The notes under the pieces: generated by a model
The model's database searches: none
What the model was told of the DNA's origin: nothing
Seen by the model: only the letters and a program-made list of their open reading frames with translations
Assembly (NCBI RefSeq): GCF_001483135.1
Contig: NZ_LNAL01000003.1
Span: 620,001 to 684,000, forward strand
Reading direction: 5' to 3'
From: Solirubrum puertoriconensis
GTDB taxonomy: Bacteria; Bacteroidota; Bacteroidia; Cytophagales; Hymenobacteraceae
Length of the DNA stretch: 64,000 nt
Program-made: the position numbers and the translations under genes
In this document: one piece after another, positions 31,861 through 37,833 of the stretch
Position numbering within the stretch: position 1 is the first letter of the stretch
How the letters are laid out: every line of letters starts with the position of its first letter

Positions 31861-32610
31861 ATGAACCAGCCCCAAGCGCAACATTTCGCAGTGTCGACCG
31901 CTTACCAGCGTGTTCGGCCCAAACCGTTGGGCTACAAGGGCGTGGCCATGGCAGTGCTAATTGTGGCAACGTGGGCGGCGTTGCTGACGTACCTGCTGGC
32001 CTACTACGAGCCCGATTGGCACACGCCGTGGCCGTACTTGCTGGCCTTGGTGCAAACGCACCTCTACACCGGGCTGTTTATTACTGCGCACGATGCCATG
32101 CACGGAGTGGTCAGCAGCAACCGCCGCCTCAACAACACCCTAGGTACCGTAGCCGCGTTGTTGTTTGCCTACAACTGGTTTCCGAGGCTGCTGCCGCGGC
32201 ACCACGCGCACCACCGGCACGTAGCCACCCCCGACGACCCTGATTTTCACGACGGCAAGCACCCCAGCTTTGTGCTGTGGCTGCTGCGCTTTGCGCGTAA
32301 TTACATTACGGTTTGGCAGGTGCTGCTAATGGCCGCCACATTCAACGTGCTGAAGCTGTTTTTTCCGGCAGCCAACGTTATTGCCTTCTGGATGCTGCCC
32401 TCGGTGCTGGCTACGGTGCAGCTATTTTACTTTGGCACATACTTGCCCCACCGTGGCGAGCATGCCCCCGACAACGTGCACAAATCGCGCAGCCAGTTGC
32501 CGCACCACGTGTGGGCGTTTGTGAGCTGCTACTTTTTTGGCTACCACTACGAGCATCACGATCAGCCGTATTTGCCGTGGTGGCGGTTGTGGCGGGCCAA
32601 GCAAGCCTAG
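31861..32610 (+). CDS. crtW: Beta-carotene ketolase CrtW
   Basis: A 249-residue membrane di-iron enzyme of the fatty-acid-desaturase/ketolase superfamily. The histidine boxes are HDAMH (77-81), HHAHHRH (114-120) and HYEHH (229-233), and the segments TPDDPDFHDG, FGTYLPHRGEH and HDQPYLPWWRLW are diagnostic of bacterial CrtW rather than of a lipid desaturase. It adds 4-keto groups to beta-ionone rings; with CrtZ it can give adonixanthin or astaxanthin. Its TAG stop lies in a CCTAGG that also forms one arm of the downstream hairpin. Confidence 0.9.
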   Translation: MNQPQAQHFAVSTAYQRVRPKPLGYKGVAMAVLIVATWAALLTYLLAYYEPDWHTPWPYLLALVQTHLYTGLFITAHDAMHGVVSSNRRLNNTLGTVAALLFAYNWFPRLLPRHHAHHRHVATPDDPDFHDGKHPSFVLWLLRFARNYITVWQVLLMAATFNVLKLFFPAANVIAFWMLPSVLATVQLFYFGTYLPHRGEHAPDNVHKSRSQLPHHVWAFVSCYFFGYHYEHHDQPYLPWWRLWRAKQA

Positions 32611-33396: not shown

Positions 33397-33654
33397 GACT
33401 TGGTTGGGTAGGGGTGTTGGGGTGAATATAGCGAGTTGAAATATTGTGTGCTAAAAATTATTGAAAGAAAACAATGCTGGCATACTCCAACTGCATCCTG
33501 ATCTACCACCATTGCGGTTTCCTCTATTTTAATAATTAGATAGCTCGTGCGGGTGCAACCTTTTGCGGGATTACTGCAGGTTTGTGCCAACTACTCGGCT
33601 GAAAGTGTGTACATTACTGTATGCCGCTTACTGCTCTCTTTCACACCTGTTGCT

Positions 33655-34224
33655 ATGTCTCGTTTTGTTGCTGCCACACCGCTGGCCCAGCCCCTTGTGC
33701 TGGGAGTGGCCTTTACCATTCCGCGCCACGATCGTGCGCGTAGCATGCGAACGGGCGTAAGCGCCCGATCCATCAAGTTGCGTATCGATCCAGCTCTGGA
33801 CTTACTGTTTGTCTCTGAAATAACCCTACCCTCCAACCTTGATTGTTTAGCCGCGCTTACCTCGCCCAACGTGGTAGCCGTGAGCCTGCGTAGCGCCAGT
33901 CTCGAGCTGTTGCCCGAAGCGCCTTGTACCGGCCCGCACCGCGGGCCTACGCTGAACGCGCTTTCCAGCGGTCATTGCTTTGTAACCGCTCACGACCGCA
34001 AAGCGCACATTGCCTCTTTCGGCGAGCGGCAAGTGCACCCCGATTGGATTGACATGCAGGTGCAAGGCCACATCAACCTCCTCGATTACCTCCGCGCCGA
34101 TTGGTTTACCGTGGAGCTTTCGGGAACACACCGCCGGCGCCTGAGCAAACCGTTGCCCCTGCGCTTGCTGCTAACCTTCGATGTGGAGGAGCTGACCCAC
34201 TCCAACCCGCCACTTGCCGCCTAG
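33655..34224 (+). CDS. Hypothetical protein (189 residues)
   Basis: A 189-residue protein starting MSRFVAATPLAQPLVLGVAF. It has no signal peptide, membrane helix or motif that I recognise; the middle is beta-rich (SIKLRIDPALDLLFVSEITL, AVSLRSASLELLPEAPCTGP) and the C-terminus basic then hydrophobic. The upstream 258 bases (33397-33654) contain an AT-rich stretch around 33430-33540 that may hold divergent promoters. The codon pattern is like the neighbours, and it ends in TAG inside CCTAGG next to a strong terminator, which supports it being a real gene. Function unknown. Confidence 0.6.
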   Translation: MSRFVAATPLAQPLVLGVAFTIPRHDRARSMRTGVSARSIKLRIDPALDLLFVSEITLPSNLDCLAALTSPNVVAVSLRSASLELLPEAPCTGPHRGPTLNALSSGHCFVTAHDRKAHIASFGERQVHPDWIDMQVQGHINLLDYLRADWFTVELSGTHRRRLSKPLPLRLLLTFDVEELTHSNPPLAA

Positions 34225-34297: not shown

Positions 34298-34681
34298 TTA
34301 CTCGGTGGTATGCACGCTGTTGGTTTTTTTGCAGCACTCGGGCAGGCGCTCGTACGCCTTGGCATTGGCGGTTTTCGTGTCGGCGTCGTAGCCGGTTGCC
34401 ACTACGGCCGAGCGCAACGCATCGGCGTTGGTTTTATCGGTGCGGTAGGTAACCGTAAGCATTTGCGTGGGCACGTTGAGCACGGCAGCTTGCACACCTT
34501 TTTCGTAGGCCAAGGCCTTTTCGAGGCGGGCCTTGCACATATCGCACACGGCCGAGGTTTTGATGTTCACCTGCTCGGTGCCGGCTTTTTGCTTGGCCTT
34601 GGGCTTGGTGTCCTGGGCTTGCGAAAACTTGGTGCCAACTAGGGCCAGCAGGCCAAAGGAAAGTGCGCGGAGGGTTTTCAT
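34298..34681 (-). CDS. Periplasmic heavy-metal-associated (HMA) domain protein
   Basis: A 127-residue exported protein. The signal peptide (1-22) ends in SQAQ, then a Lys-rich linker, then an HMA ferredoxin-like domain with metal-binding CDMC (Cys46, Cys49) in KTSAVCDMCKARLEKALAYE. ALRSAVVATGYDADT is the second helix. A second Cys pair lies near the C-terminus (PECCKK, Cys116/117), which is outside the canonical HMA fold. It probably binds or passes Cu(I) or another soft metal in the periplasm. It is the last gene of a set with the TonB receptor (52-base gap) and the HYC_CC_PP gene. Confidence 0.85.
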   Translation of the reverse strand: MKTLRALSFGLLALVGTKFSQAQDTKPKAKQKAGTEQVNIKTSAVCDMCKARLEKALAYEKGVQAAVLNVPTQMLTVTYRTDKTNADALRSAVVATGYDADTKTANAKAYERLPECCKKTNSVHTTE

Positions 34682-34733
34682 GATCAGAGAAGGAAGAGAG
34701 GAGGAGAGAAGTTTCAATGGTATTCGAGTAGCG

Positions 34734-37082
34734 CTACTCGAGGCGGAAGCGCATGCCTAGGTAAGTCAAACGCCCGTAAATAGGACCCCAGTTCATGGCA
34801 GCATCAAACATGGGGCCGAAAGGTTGAGCGGCGGCATCGATGGGGTTGCGCTGGCGGTAGTTGGTCAGGTTCTCGACGCCGGCATACACATCGAAGCGCT
34901 TGAAGGCGCGGGTAAGCTGCGCATTTAGCGTGGCAAAGCGCGGCGAGTAGCGTAGCACCGGACCGGCGGCGCTCCCGCCATCGTGCTGGTGCGCTAAGCC
35001 GGGCGCGTAGGGTCGCTTGCCGTACCATTGAGCCGTGAGGTCGGCGCGCCACTTGTCGTAGGCGCTGGCGTAGCCCACGTTGGCAAACAAGCGGTGCTGC
35101 GGCGTAAGCGGCTTGGGCAATAAGCGGTTGCCGTAGTTGGTTTTCACATCAAGCCACTTGTAAGCTGCTTTGGCGTGCAGTCCTTTCACGGGCTCTACCT
35201 GCACCTCGGCCTGGAAGCTGCGCGAAAACGAGCGGCCGCCCGGCGCCAGGTTGCCGATGATGAGCATCGAAGGCAGCGAGTACGGGTCGGCTACCACCTG
35301 GTTTTGGAAGGTTGTGTAGTAGTAATCGGCCACGAAGGTTGCCTGCCGCCCAGCCACCGTGAAGTACTGCGACAACGAGCCGCCCACGTTCCAGGCCCGT
35401 TCGGGCTGCAGGTTGTCGGCAATGCTGAAGGGGCGGCTGCTTACCAGCATGCCCGAGTTTTCGGCAATGGGGTTGGCCACACGGTAGCCGCGGCCAGCGG
35501 CCAAACGCAGCACGGTGCTGGTGGTGGGGTCGTATTTTACGTTCAGGCGCGGCGTCAGGAACCAGCCGTACAGGTTGTGGTAATCGGCACGGGCACCGGC
35601 TACTACCGTGAGGTTACGCGAGTTCTGGTAGGTGTACTCGGCAAAAGCGCCGGGCACGCGCTCGGTGCGGGCCCGCAGTTCGCGTTGGCGGGTTTGCGCG
35701 GGCGTTTCGGCCGCGTTCGGGCCGGTGCGCAGGTACTCCTGGTAGTCGTCGTAGAGGTAGCTGGCACCTAGGCGGTACACGTGCGAGGTGTTGCCAATGG
35801 CGCTCTGAAACAGCAGCGTAGCCAAGCCGGTGCGCTGCGTACCATCATACTGGCGCTGCGGGCGGAACAAGTTGCCCTCTTGCAGCACCACATCGAACGG
35901 CAAGCCGTAGGTGCTGCCCCCAAACGTGGAGTTGAACTTGTGGCTAGTGCCCGAAAGCAGCAGGCCGAGGCTCTGATAGGGCTTGCTAGGCCAGGTGTAC
36001 GAGGTTTTGTTGTAGGCCGTGTAGCGGTTGGTTTCCTGCGTGATGCCGTAGTTGGGGTTGCCCACTTCTCCTTCCCGAAAACCAACCTGGCCACCTAGGC
36101 GGGTTTCGCGCAGTGCGCCCACGCCCAACTCGCTCACAATGGCTTTGCCCGACTTATACTTCCACTTGTTCATCACGTTGTACTGCGTGGCCAAGGGCAA
36201 GTCCATGAAACCGTCTTTGTTGCGGTCGATGCGGTTGCCTAGGTGGTCGGCGTGCAGCAGCAGCGCGGTGCTCAGCTTGGGGTTGATGCGAGCCGAGGTG
36301 TTGAGGTTCAGGTCGAATTTGCCAAAGTCGTTGACGTAGGCATTGAACAGCAGGCGGTCGGTAGCGTCGGGCTCCTTCAGCCGCACGTTCACTTGCCCCG
36401 AAATCGATTCGTAACCGTTCACCACCGAGCCCATGCCCTTGATGATGTCGATGTTCTCGATCCAAGGGCCGGCTAGGTAGTTTAGGCGGTATGGCGACGA
36501 CAAACCGCGCAGCGCCGGCAGGTTATCTACCGTCAGCAGCGAGTACGAGCCATCTAGGCCTAGCATCTGAATCTGCTTGGCACCCGATGCCGCGTCGGTG
36601 GTCGATACTTCTACCGAAGCATTGGTCTCGAAGCTTTCGGCCAGGTTGCAGCACGCCGATTTAGTTAGGTCTTGCGCGCTGATTACCTGCGTGTTGGTGG
36701 GCGTGAGCGAGGAATAGCTAGGAGCACGCTCCGTAATTACCACTTCCTGCAGCTCGGCGCTGCCTTTGAGGGGCACGCGTACGTAGCCAGCCGCCTGCAC
36801 CGTGTCGGGGCGGTAGCCCAGGGCATTTACTACCAAGCGGCCTGAGGTGGCCTTGGTAGAGTAGGGCAGCACGAACAAGCCTTTGTTGTCGGTGGTGGTG
36901 GCTTGGTCGGTACCGAGCCAGCGCACAATGGCGCCGGGCAACGCGGCGCGGGTGGCGCTGTCGGTTACCTCGCCGCGCACGGGTTGCGGCGCGGCAGATG
37001 ATTGGGCGAAAGCGGCCGGCGCAGTACCCAGCACTAGCACGGGTACAACGCGCAGGGCGCGGCTTCGCAACAAAGCAAACAT
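34734..37082 (-). CDS. TonB-dependent outer-membrane receptor (metal-locus type)
   Basis: A 782-residue receptor with signal peptide (1-26, ending in AFAQ), an N-terminal carboxypeptidase-regulatory-like domain (about 33-112; VRGEVTDSATRAALPGAIVR), a plug (about 125-235; GLDGSYSLLTVDNLPALRG, GYESISGQVNV) and a 22-strand barrel to the C-terminal LTYLGMRFRLE. A distinctive Cys pair in the plug (LTKSACCNLAESFETN) is typical of receptors that sit next to HMA-domain proteins. The likely cargo is a metal or metal chelate, with copper the favoured guess from its neighbours. It lies between HYC_CC_PP and HMA genes on the same strand. Confidence 0.9.
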   Translation of the reverse strand: MFALLRSRALRVVPVLVLGTAPAAFAQSSAAPQPVRGEVTDSATRAALPGAIVRWLGTDQATTTDNKGLFVLPYSTKATSGRLVVNALGYRPDTVQAAGYVRVPLKGSAELQEVVITERAPSYSSLTPTNTQVISAQDLTKSACCNLAESFETNASVEVSTTDAASGAKQIQMLGLDGSYSLLTVDNLPALRGLSSPYRLNYLAGPWIENIDIIKGMGSVVNGYESISGQVNVRLKEPDATDRLLFNAYVNDFGKFDLNLNTSARINPKLSTALLLHADHLGNRIDRNKDGFMDLPLATQYNVMNKWKYKSGKAIVSELGVGALRETRLGGQVGFREGEVGNPNYGITQETNRYTAYNKTSYTWPSKPYQSLGLLLSGTSHKFNSTFGGSTYGLPFDVVLQEGNLFRPQRQYDGTQRTGLATLLFQSAIGNTSHVYRLGASYLYDDYQEYLRTGPNAAETPAQTRQRELRARTERVPGAFAEYTYQNSRNLTVVAGARADYHNLYGWFLTPRLNVKYDPTTSTVLRLAAGRGYRVANPIAENSGMLVSSRPFSIADNLQPERAWNVGGSLSQYFTVAGRQATFVADYYYTTFQNQVVADPYSLPSMLIIGNLAPGGRSFSRSFQAEVQVEPVKGLHAKAAYKWLDVKTNYGNRLLPKPLTPQHRLFANVGYASAYDKWRADLTAQWYGKRPYAPGLAHQHDGGSAAGPVLRYSPRFATLNAQLTRAFKRFDVYAGVENLTNYRQRNPIDAAAQPFGPMFDAAMNWGPIYGRLTYLGMRFRLE

Positions 37083-37183
37083 AAAGTCAGGAGGTTAGGC
37101 CTTCGGGAAAGATGGTAAACGGCCGCGCAGGGCCATACCCGCAAGCACCGCACGGTGCCAGCATTGCCGAAAAAGAGCCTAAC

Positions 37184-37645
37184 CTAGACGTTGAGCGTGC
37201 ACTTGAAGGCCAGTAGGGCCCTGCCCGTTCGAAGGGGGGGAGATGAATCGGCCGCGTGCCAGGTAAGCTGGGGCGCTACGACTGCTGCCGGCGCCTGTGG
37301 TGCCCACACGGGCTGCGGCAGCACGGCCAGCAAGGCCGGCGCCACCACCTTCAGCAGCGGACCCGAAGATGCCGAGGTATCTACCTTGTGGTGGTGAGCA
37401 CTGAAGTCGCAGCAGCCGTCCTCCACTGCGGCTTTGGCAACGGCTGCTGGTTTGTCGCAGCCGGGAGCCTTTGCTACCGCTTCTTTGGGGGCGCACACGT
37501 GGTGCGGCGTCAGTACAACGGCCCGTTGGGTTTGGCCACTAGCAAAGCAGGTGTGCTGCTGCACCGTGAGACCCACCGACGAGGTGAGCACCAGCAGGGC
37601 CAGCCACAAGCTAGTAAGGCGCAGCAACAACGAGCGTTTCTTCAC
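37184..37645 (-). CDS. HYC_CC_PP-family protein
   Basis: A 153-residue exported protein with GTG start (VKKRSLLLRLTSLWLALLVL), signal peptide to about residue 28 and the three motif blocks that name this Bacteroidota family: H-x-C as His31-Thr-Cys33, the Cys pair Cys78/Cys79 (EDGCCDF) and Pro136-Pro137 (DSSPPLRTGRALL). A His-rich stretch (SAHHHKVDT) follows the Cys pair. The Cys/His content suggests metal binding in the periplasm. The family usually accompanies TonB receptors and HMA proteins, as here. A TATCTTTG box (37650-37657, minus) lies only 4 bases before the GTG, so the transcript may be nearly leaderless. Confidence 0.82.
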   Translation of the reverse strand: MKKRSLLLRLTSLWLALLVLTSSVGLTVQQHTCFASGQTQRAVVLTPHHVCAPKEAVAKAPGCDKPAAVAKAAVEDGCCDFSAHHHKVDTSASSGPLLKVVAPALLAVLPQPVWAPQAPAAVVAPQLTWHAADSSPPLRTGRALLAFKCTLNV

Positions 37646-37833
37646 AGCACAAAGATACGCAGTTAGCCCGAGCTTGGGCCGTACACATTAATGCTTGGGC
37701 AGTACATGATTTAGGCCTTGCCCTAGGTGTTATTGGTACTCGGCTGCCAATTTGGCAAGCAGCTGTAGCTGCTACCACCTTTTGTCCCAACCGCAGCTCA
37801 GATGCTAAAAAAAAGCCCTTGACTAGCTCTAAA

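Follow-up and report, generated by a model that had tools for sequence, protein, structure and literature searches.

A 64,000-nucleotide (nt) stretch of the genome of Solirubrum puertoriconensis (contig NZ_LNAL01000003.1, positions 620,001 to 684,000; hereafter, the window) carries three adjacent genes which encode, in this order, a HYC_CC_PP-like leader protein (HYC), a TonB-dependent receptor and a single-domain HMA protein (Table 1). The three genes are a conserved unit. The metal involved is most likely copper, and we propose from sequence that the unit would be a copper-responsive outer-membrane uptake operon regulated in cis by HYC, a reading whose chances we place just above even. A broader proposal, which we hold tentatively and rate somewhat short of even, is that HYC_CC_PP proteins may be Bacteroidota-wide copper-sensing nascent chains, without profile kinship to DUF2946 and translated from leaderless or nearly leaderless mRNAs, in which a CC-PP ruler of about 54 residues would set two opposing branches of copper traffic, Cus export systems and a new family of TonB receptors with an HMA acceptor chaperone as partner or part.

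Conservation of the three-gene unit

The order HYC-receptor-HMA is kept among 35 named relatives of the locus, the nearest of which belong to Hymenobacter. HYC lies upstream in 33 of the 35 loci (32 by script and L022 on re-reading); as for the other two, L033 is partly masked at this place and Prevotella L034 shows no HYC. The HMA gene lies downstream in 34 of the 35 (L003 and L034 as judged by reading, the other 32 by script), and at the remaining locus, L031, the contig ends 282 bases past the receptor gene.

The survey of co-occurrence across Bacteroidota, proposed in the initial annotation of this DNA, extends the association beyond close relatives. Our phylum sample comprised 296 genomes, 91 of which contain HYC_CC_PP matches. 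The receptor profile matched 112 genomes at E ≤ 1e-80; of these matches, we retained the 76 that scored 536 bits or more, one per genome, and excluded those that scored 469 bits (and contained a stop) or no more than 416 bits. Within 5 kb of these 76 receptors, at least 55 have an HMA gene, 45 have HYC, at least 41 have both and at least 59 have either, counts that are lower bounds with HMA taken from the best 150 matches. The nearest HMA or HYC partner is always on the same strand as the receptor. HYC also occurs in 54 of the 76 receptor genomes, a genome-level co-occurrence that is confounded by descent and on which we do not rely.

In seven receptors, among those whose first 360 residues were inspected, HMA domains precede the plug within the same ORF; four of these fusions have tandem HMA domains, some of them with His-rich linkers, and an eighth (genome G095) has the same pattern as read from its search rows alone. 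Because HMA domains are fused to the receptor N-terminus in several genomes, the receptor and the HMA protein very likely act together, and the fusions would place HMA on the periplasmic side of the receptor. Ahead of the tandem HMA-HMA-receptor fusions of L136-L139 lies a short Cys-rich ORF ending in IWQPPKI(A/G), with Pro-Pro five residues from its end, and at three of these loci an upstream gene pair clusters as a histidine kinase and a response regulator. The genome of the window itself contains a second, more distant TonB receptor match (G000:C8:735854-738112, 376 bits).

The HYC leader protein

HYC scores 23.9 bits against the NCBIfam profile NF047658, under its curated cut-off of 28; the profile is matched at E ≤ 0.01 by all 23 aligned sequences (the window protein and 22 relatives). 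The protein has HxC, CC and PP in this order, a motif set read from the family name and the alignment, and its residues C33, C51, C78 and C79 are invariant in the 23 sequences. When the same profile was run on 14 control genomes as a loose test of specificity, it was matched at E ≤ 0.001 in a single one, a Bacteroides, and at E ≤ 1 in three, two of which gave weak matches outside Bacteroidota.

A regular property of the family is the distance between the Cys-Cys and Pro-Pro motifs. Where both are present, it amounts to 52-60 residues in 31 of 31 close relatives and to 50-58 in 57 of 61 others (range 50-69), with about 54 being typical. Where the position of the first Cys motif was assignable as well (31 sequences of the first set and 45 of the second), the standard deviation of the CC-PP spacing is 1.7 and 3.3, respectively, versus 9.1 in both sets for the HxC-CC spacing. 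In 60 of 75 HYC proteins, no more than 20 residues separate Pro-Pro from the C-terminus; in the relatives, many of which are shorter than the window protein, Pro-Pro mostly starts 17-18 residues from the end. HYC and the gene that follows it share a strand in 73 of 75 cases, and in 63 that gene encodes a receptor, an HMA protein or a Cus component.

By these traits, HYC does not look like a carrier: a nascent-chain sensor acting in cis fits better, because HYC precedes importers and exporters alike, keeps a near-fixed CC-PP distance, ends close to a Pro-Pro and is followed by RNA structure after its stop codon. No mention of HYC_CC_PP was found in the literature searched, a search outside which most subscription-journal papers lie.

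Transcript start and intergenic RNA structure

A box of the TAnnTTTG type, the −7 promoter consensus of Bacteroidota, precedes an in-frame GTG or ATG start of HYC by 12 nt (in two loci, by 13) in 26 of 32 relatives, at a background density of 2.8e-4 per nt; in the window (TATCTTTG) the distance is 12 nt. No such box occurs 8-20 nt before the HYC start in L001, L003, L004, L006, L010 and L031. Given the promoter geometry of Bacteroidota, a box at 12-13 nt would put the transcription start on the initiation codon or close beside it, which suggests that the HYC mRNA is leaderless or nearly so.

The spacer between the HYC stop codon and the receptor start is 101 nt long in the window and contains a predicted hairpin with the closing stem GUUAGGCU/GGCCUAAC. 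Compared with dinucleotide shuffles, such spacers (those of at least 30 nt) fold with a mean z of −2.6, and 23 of 32 fall below −2, the window having z = −2.10. The corresponding values are −0.25 upstream of HYC (1 of 32 below −2) and −0.02 within the receptor coding sequence (1 of 35). For spacers of at least 50 nt, to which the tests of the closing helix and of start accessibility were confined, a helix which begins no more than 15 nt from the HYC stop codon and spans at least half of the spacer was found in 27 of 31, versus 11.9 expected. In eight Hymenobacter sequences, a ten-pair stem has its pairs formed in 88.8% of the cells of the alignment; five pairs have changed on both sides, and the covariation score was attained in 4 of 500 shuffles. 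Among HYC loci from the whole phylum, the 100-nt segments downstream of the gene are the most structured before Cus genes (mean z −2.96, 19 of 23 below −2) and also fold well before other genes (−2.03, 6 of 12), versus −0.31 and 7 of 75 in controls. A ribosome stalled at Pro-Pro would stand about 50 nt ahead of the stop codon and probably would not reach the stem.

The receptor and the HMA protein

The receptor exceeds the Pfam cut-offs for the plug (43.5 versus 23.9 bits), the barrel (85 versus 27) and CarbopepD_reg_2 (36 versus 32.2). Its assignment to the TonB-dependent transporters rests on the plug and barrel matches, on a usable AlphaFold barrel and on Foldseek matches to general TonB receptors such as FepA, FpvA and PirA (OprC ranks 45th), without a strand count. 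The protein contains exactly two cysteines, adjacent to each other in the plug motif SACCNLAESFETN; this pair is invariant in 36 of 36 sequences (the named set) and kept in 40 of 40 further receptors from across the phylum and from plasmids. In the model, plug residues 110-191 have a pLDDT below 50, and the side on which the pair lies, periplasm or outside, therefore cannot be read from it. In a profile alignment to the colicin I receptor, the pair stands opposite VQ in RKPVQNLKDVLKEV, a site which is presumably on the periplasmic side.

The HMA protein matches its Pfam domain at 34.6 bits (cut-off 24.8), and C45, C48 and C116 are invariant and C115 nearly so in 16 aligned sequences. Its ORF begins with TTG at 34717, and the segment ahead of the ATG at 34681 is poorly conserved, which makes this ATG the most likely start. 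The metal motif of the window protein, SAVCDMC, has no Met two residues ahead of the first Cys; the homologues from Prevotella L034 and genome G238 carry MxCxxC and lack a pair of cysteines at the C-terminus.

The initial annotation had described three exported products of same-strand genes with paired cysteines, CDMC and a terminal CC in the HMA protein, ACC in the plug, and HxC and GCC in HYC. ORF, domain and alignment data bear out the genes, and each motif was located; because the cysteines are invariant (C115 of the HMA protein nearly so) across the aligned receptor, HMA and HYC sequences, they are not there by chance. All three proteins look exported, as judged by reading their N-termini. 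Among the matches listed in our literature search, which covered few subscription journals, we found no study of the receptor-HMA unit, as judged by titles and the starts of abstracts.

The metal

From 123 listed HYC places, we fetched 60 regions, hand-chosen to spread over families and some holding two HYC genes. Within 6 kb of HYC, 31 have Cus-type pump genes, 18 the receptor and 7 CopA; none of the 60 has receptor and Cus genes together, with four unclassified, in which our own profile detected no HYC and of which, by their gene rows, L070 and L094 adjoin a receptor and L125 and L128 adjoin Cus genes. The pumps were compared with the known Cu(I)/Ag(I) site of CusA, the Met triad being the methionines aligned to it. 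All 22 full-length RND pumps of the HYC regions have the triad, as do 24 of the 25 in the complete set of fetched loci, the sole exception being the plasmid pump of L133, which adjoins a receptor; CusA genes split into two ORFs (nine loci) were left unscored. One pump aligns to Escherichia coli CusA with 998 bits versus 575 to ZneA, annotated as CzcA-like. In genome G238, genes for the receptor, an HMA protein and a copper-type P-ATPase (TIGR01511, 583 bits versus a cut-off of 397) follow each other. Copper is the most likely metal because the HYC family otherwise adjoins Cu(I)/Ag(I)-type Cus operons and because one genome has receptor, HMA and P-ATPase in series.

A link to heme-copper oxidases was considered and set aside: COX1 is present in 283 of the 296 genomes, and its presence in 75 of the 76 receptor genomes (G238 is without a COX1 match) is therefore uninformative on a respiratory role. 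The split pumps occur at L076, L079, L083, L116, L117, L118, L120, L121 and L122, as two adjacent ORFs of about 420-470 and 630-700 amino acids (aa). L117 (8827-9399) and nine other loci encode a protein of about 190 aa with a CxxC start that is HMA-like by eye and an AraC-type helix-turn-helix, possibly a fused metal sensor.

Proposed mechanism and alternatives

Two characterized leaders, CruR (PMC9426467) and CutF (PMC9973294), are described as short exported proteins with genes immediately ahead of copper genes and with a nascent chain that meets copper through its cysteines on the ribosome and acts via a C-terminal Pro-Pro. By analogy, we propose that the receptor would take up copper, as ion or chelate, and that copper would be handed from the Cys-Cys of the plug to the CxMC and C-terminal CC of the periplasmic HMA protein, which would buffer or forward it. 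HYC would act in cis: the Cys-Cys of the exported nascent chain would meet copper while the ribosome is at Pro-Pro, about 54 residues on, and this contact would decide the expression of the receptor gene behind the intergenic hairpin. In this scheme we infer copper as the metal, the import direction, the transfer between cysteine pairs, the stalling of the ribosome and the sign of the regulation.

The initial annotation had pictured a relay from the receptor through periplasmic carriers. Its core, a metal unit with transfer from receptor to HMA, agrees with the neighbouring genes, the fusions and the paired cysteines; the role given to HYC, that of a second carrier, does not hold up as well. 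HYC looks exported, has four invariant cysteines (Cys33, Cys51, Cys78 and Cys79) and adjoins metal genes, as would a stable periplasmic carrier beside HMA and the receptor. Such a carrier would not be expected from a protein whose model shows a hydrophobic N-terminal helix (residues 3-36) and no other confident fold (mean pLDDT 55.7, a weak test), whose CC-PP spacing is near-constant while its N-terminal spacing varies, and whose gene precedes importer and exporter genes alike, with RNA structure after the stop codon; we consider it distinctly unlikely. The direction of transport, which the annotation had left open, splits in two for the same reason that HYC precedes importers and exporters: HYC is neutral, and the receptor implies import, the direction in which TonB-dependent receptors act. 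Import speaks against the view that receptor and HMA sequester copper for protection rather than supply, as do the absence of joint receptor and Cus genes near HYC (0 of 60 regions, four unclassified) and the missing Met triad of the pump beside the plasmid receptor. Occurrence of the unit in anaerobes, the efflux systems that make up the other company of the HYC family, and that same plasmid receptor near a CusA/CzcA pump would suit a resistance unit, which we nonetheless judge very unlikely.

The cargo might also be another thiophilic metal (zinc, mercury or silver) or a metal chelate, bound by the HMA protein and the plug cysteines. HMA domains are not metal-specific, the window motif is without the Met seen in the L034 and G238 homologues, and the best NCBIfam matches of the HMA protein are MerT/CopZ- and MerTP-like, all far under cut-off; set against this are the Cu(I)/Ag(I) triad of all 22 full-length pumps in HYC regions, the receptor-HMA-CopA series of G238 and the MxCxxC of the L034 and G238 proteins, so that a cargo other than copper seems unlikely to us. 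A final possibility, rather unlikely in our estimate, is that hairpin and Pro-Pro are incidental in an ordinary operon controlled by a transcriptional copper regulator encoded elsewhere. It would account for a receptor start that is not clearly sequestered, for stalling that is only predicted and for the modest phylum-wide structure before receptor and HMA genes; it does not explain why close relatives surpass the controls in RNA structure, closing helix and covariation, or why the CC-PP spacing holds across divergent proteins.

Several observations weigh against a copper uptake operon controlled by HYC. Anaerobes of uncertain copper need carry the receptor too (Prevotella L034, Parabacteroides L130), in both genera together with HMA. 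Among the 76 receptors, 17 have neither HMA nor HYC among the matches listed; five of these loci were inspected, and L140, L142 and L147 have a HYC-like ORF by our own profile, L139 is an HMA fusion and L145 has neither. Common descent by itself could account for the conserved CC-PP spacing, and in the HYC of L027 SPL replaces SPP. As for the RNA, the receptor-HMA spacer taken as a control has a mean z of −0.83, with 5 of 26 below −2; the eight sequences that served for the covariation test had also supplied the stem; and the 100 nt after HYC before receptor or HMA genes are modestly structured (mean z −1.38, 11 of 40 below −2). Sequestration of the receptor start is unsupported, this region being neither clearly hidden nor open (mean unpaired 0.40 versus 0.37 in the hairpin). 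Attenuation of the Rho type was likewise rejected: C minus G is 0.041 in HYC versus 0.059 in the receptor gene and 0.078 in the HMA gene, and no CruR-like Rho site is therefore visible. DUF2946 is matched neither by the window HYC (E ≤ 1) nor by the 23 aligned sequences (E ≤ 10), a scan of which returned three stray weak matches to other families. Lastly, the motif of HYC is CC versus CXXC in CruR and CxxxC in CutF, and the window protein, with 153 aa and 16 residues after Pro-Pro, falls outside the rules of the CutF survey (fewer than 150 aa, Pro-Pro in the last 15).

To our knowledge, copper entry through the outer membrane of Gram-negative bacteria is known for few receptors. If the proposed mechanism is true, Bacteroidota would have a family of copper receptors with a built-in periplasmic acceptor, HYC_CC_PP, a named family of unknown role, would gain a function, and nascent-chain metal sensing, as in Bordetella and Rhodobacter, would extend to a phylum with different rules of translation start.

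Features and flanks of the locus

Gene coordinates are those of the ORF list and domain searches. The unit is flanked by mraZ, on the opposite strand, and on the other side by an unnamed plus-strand ORF (33547-34224), beyond which lies a LytTR response regulator gene. A scan of the locus for promoters and terminators gave no signal exceeding shuffles. Farther off, the window contains a gene of the fatty-acid-desaturase family (31861-32610) next to IspH-like and phytoene-synthase-like ORFs, neighbours which we presume to have an isoprenoid or carotenoid role.

Table 1. Positions in the window of the genes of the unit, their motifs and the adjoining signals
Feature	Positions	Strand	Details
−7 promoter box TATCTTTG (TAnnTTTG type)	37650..37657	−	12 nt ahead of the HYC GTG start
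HYC_CC_PP-like leader ORF	37184..37645	−	153 aa, GTG start; proposed nascent-chain copper sensor
Cys78-Cys79 of HYC	37409..37414	−	Invariant in alignment; proposed metal site
Pro136-Pro137 of HYC	37235..37240	−	Separated from Cys-Cys by 56 residues, 16 residues to the end; proposed stall site
RNA hairpin between HYC stop and receptor start	37094..37183	−	Closing stem GUUAGGCU/GGCCUAAC
TonB-dependent receptor	34734..37082	−	CarbopepD_reg_2, plug and barrel; 782 aa
Cys144-Cys145 in receptor plug	36648..36653	−	Sole cysteines of the receptor
Single-domain HMA protein, exported-looking	34298..34681	−	127 aa counted from the ATG at 34681
CDMC metal motif, HMA domain	34535..34546	−	From alignment
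C-terminal Cys-Cys of HMA protein	34331..34336	−	From alignment

Comparison with known systems

A close parallel is the Bordetella operon of CruR, BfrG/CrtA and BP2921 (PMC9426467, PMC12914433), where an exported leader with Cys and Pro-Pro motifs likewise comes first and is followed by a TonB-dependent transporter, across an intergenic region of 162 bp versus 101 here. In both cases the leader is predicted to be poorly structured and the spacing between Cys motif and Pro-Pro is conserved. The same accounts describe CruR as a DUF2946 protein with CXXC, RAPP three residues from its end and a 45-residue spacing, whereas HYC has HxC...CC...SPP, a spacing of about 54 residues and no DUF2946 match. 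CrtA is described there as without conserved cysteines and as mostly followed by a PepSY_TM gene; the window receptor differs from this type by its invariant plug Cys-Cys and by the HMA gene downstream.

Similarly, the cutFOG operon of Rhodobacter capsulatus (PMC9973294) has an exported Cys-containing leader with a C-terminal Pro-Pro, a hairpin and copper genes downstream. Unlike HYC, CutF has CxxxC, controls a multicopper oxidase and precedes a hairpin that hides a Shine-Dalgarno site; no such masking could be shown for the hairpin here. The survey in that source places many CutF-like proteins in Bacteroidota already, with RND outer-membrane and TonB-like neighbours. As in CutF-like loci, the window has a same-strand putative copper-homeostasis gene within 1,000 nt downstream of the leader (the receptor gene, after 101 nt) and a stem-loop between the leader ORF and the following gene. 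Since HYC has no DUF2946 profile match and departs from what the CutF survey strictly requires of length and Pro-Pro position, we speak of resemblance to sensors of the CutF/CruR type in the presumed way of working, and do not claim membership.

With regard to the receptor, OprC (PMC8610252) is also TonB-dependent and has a plug cysteine, which in OprC is a copper ligand. Its copper site of the CxxxM-HxM type was sought and rejected for the window receptor, from which both motifs are absent, and no Met stands four residues after either plug Cys in the 36 receptors of the named set or in the 40 from the phylum. An OprC-like TonB receptor proposed for copper uptake in Bizionia argentinensis, another member of Bacteroidota whose genome lists HMA proteins, is described with the OprC motif (PMC11213822), and the window receptor is without it. 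Zinc-linked TonB receptors of Riemerella (PMC11960050) could not be mapped to the family of the window receptor. Collectively, these comparisons indicate that the system is known in kind, from CruR-CrtA and CutF, and new in parts.

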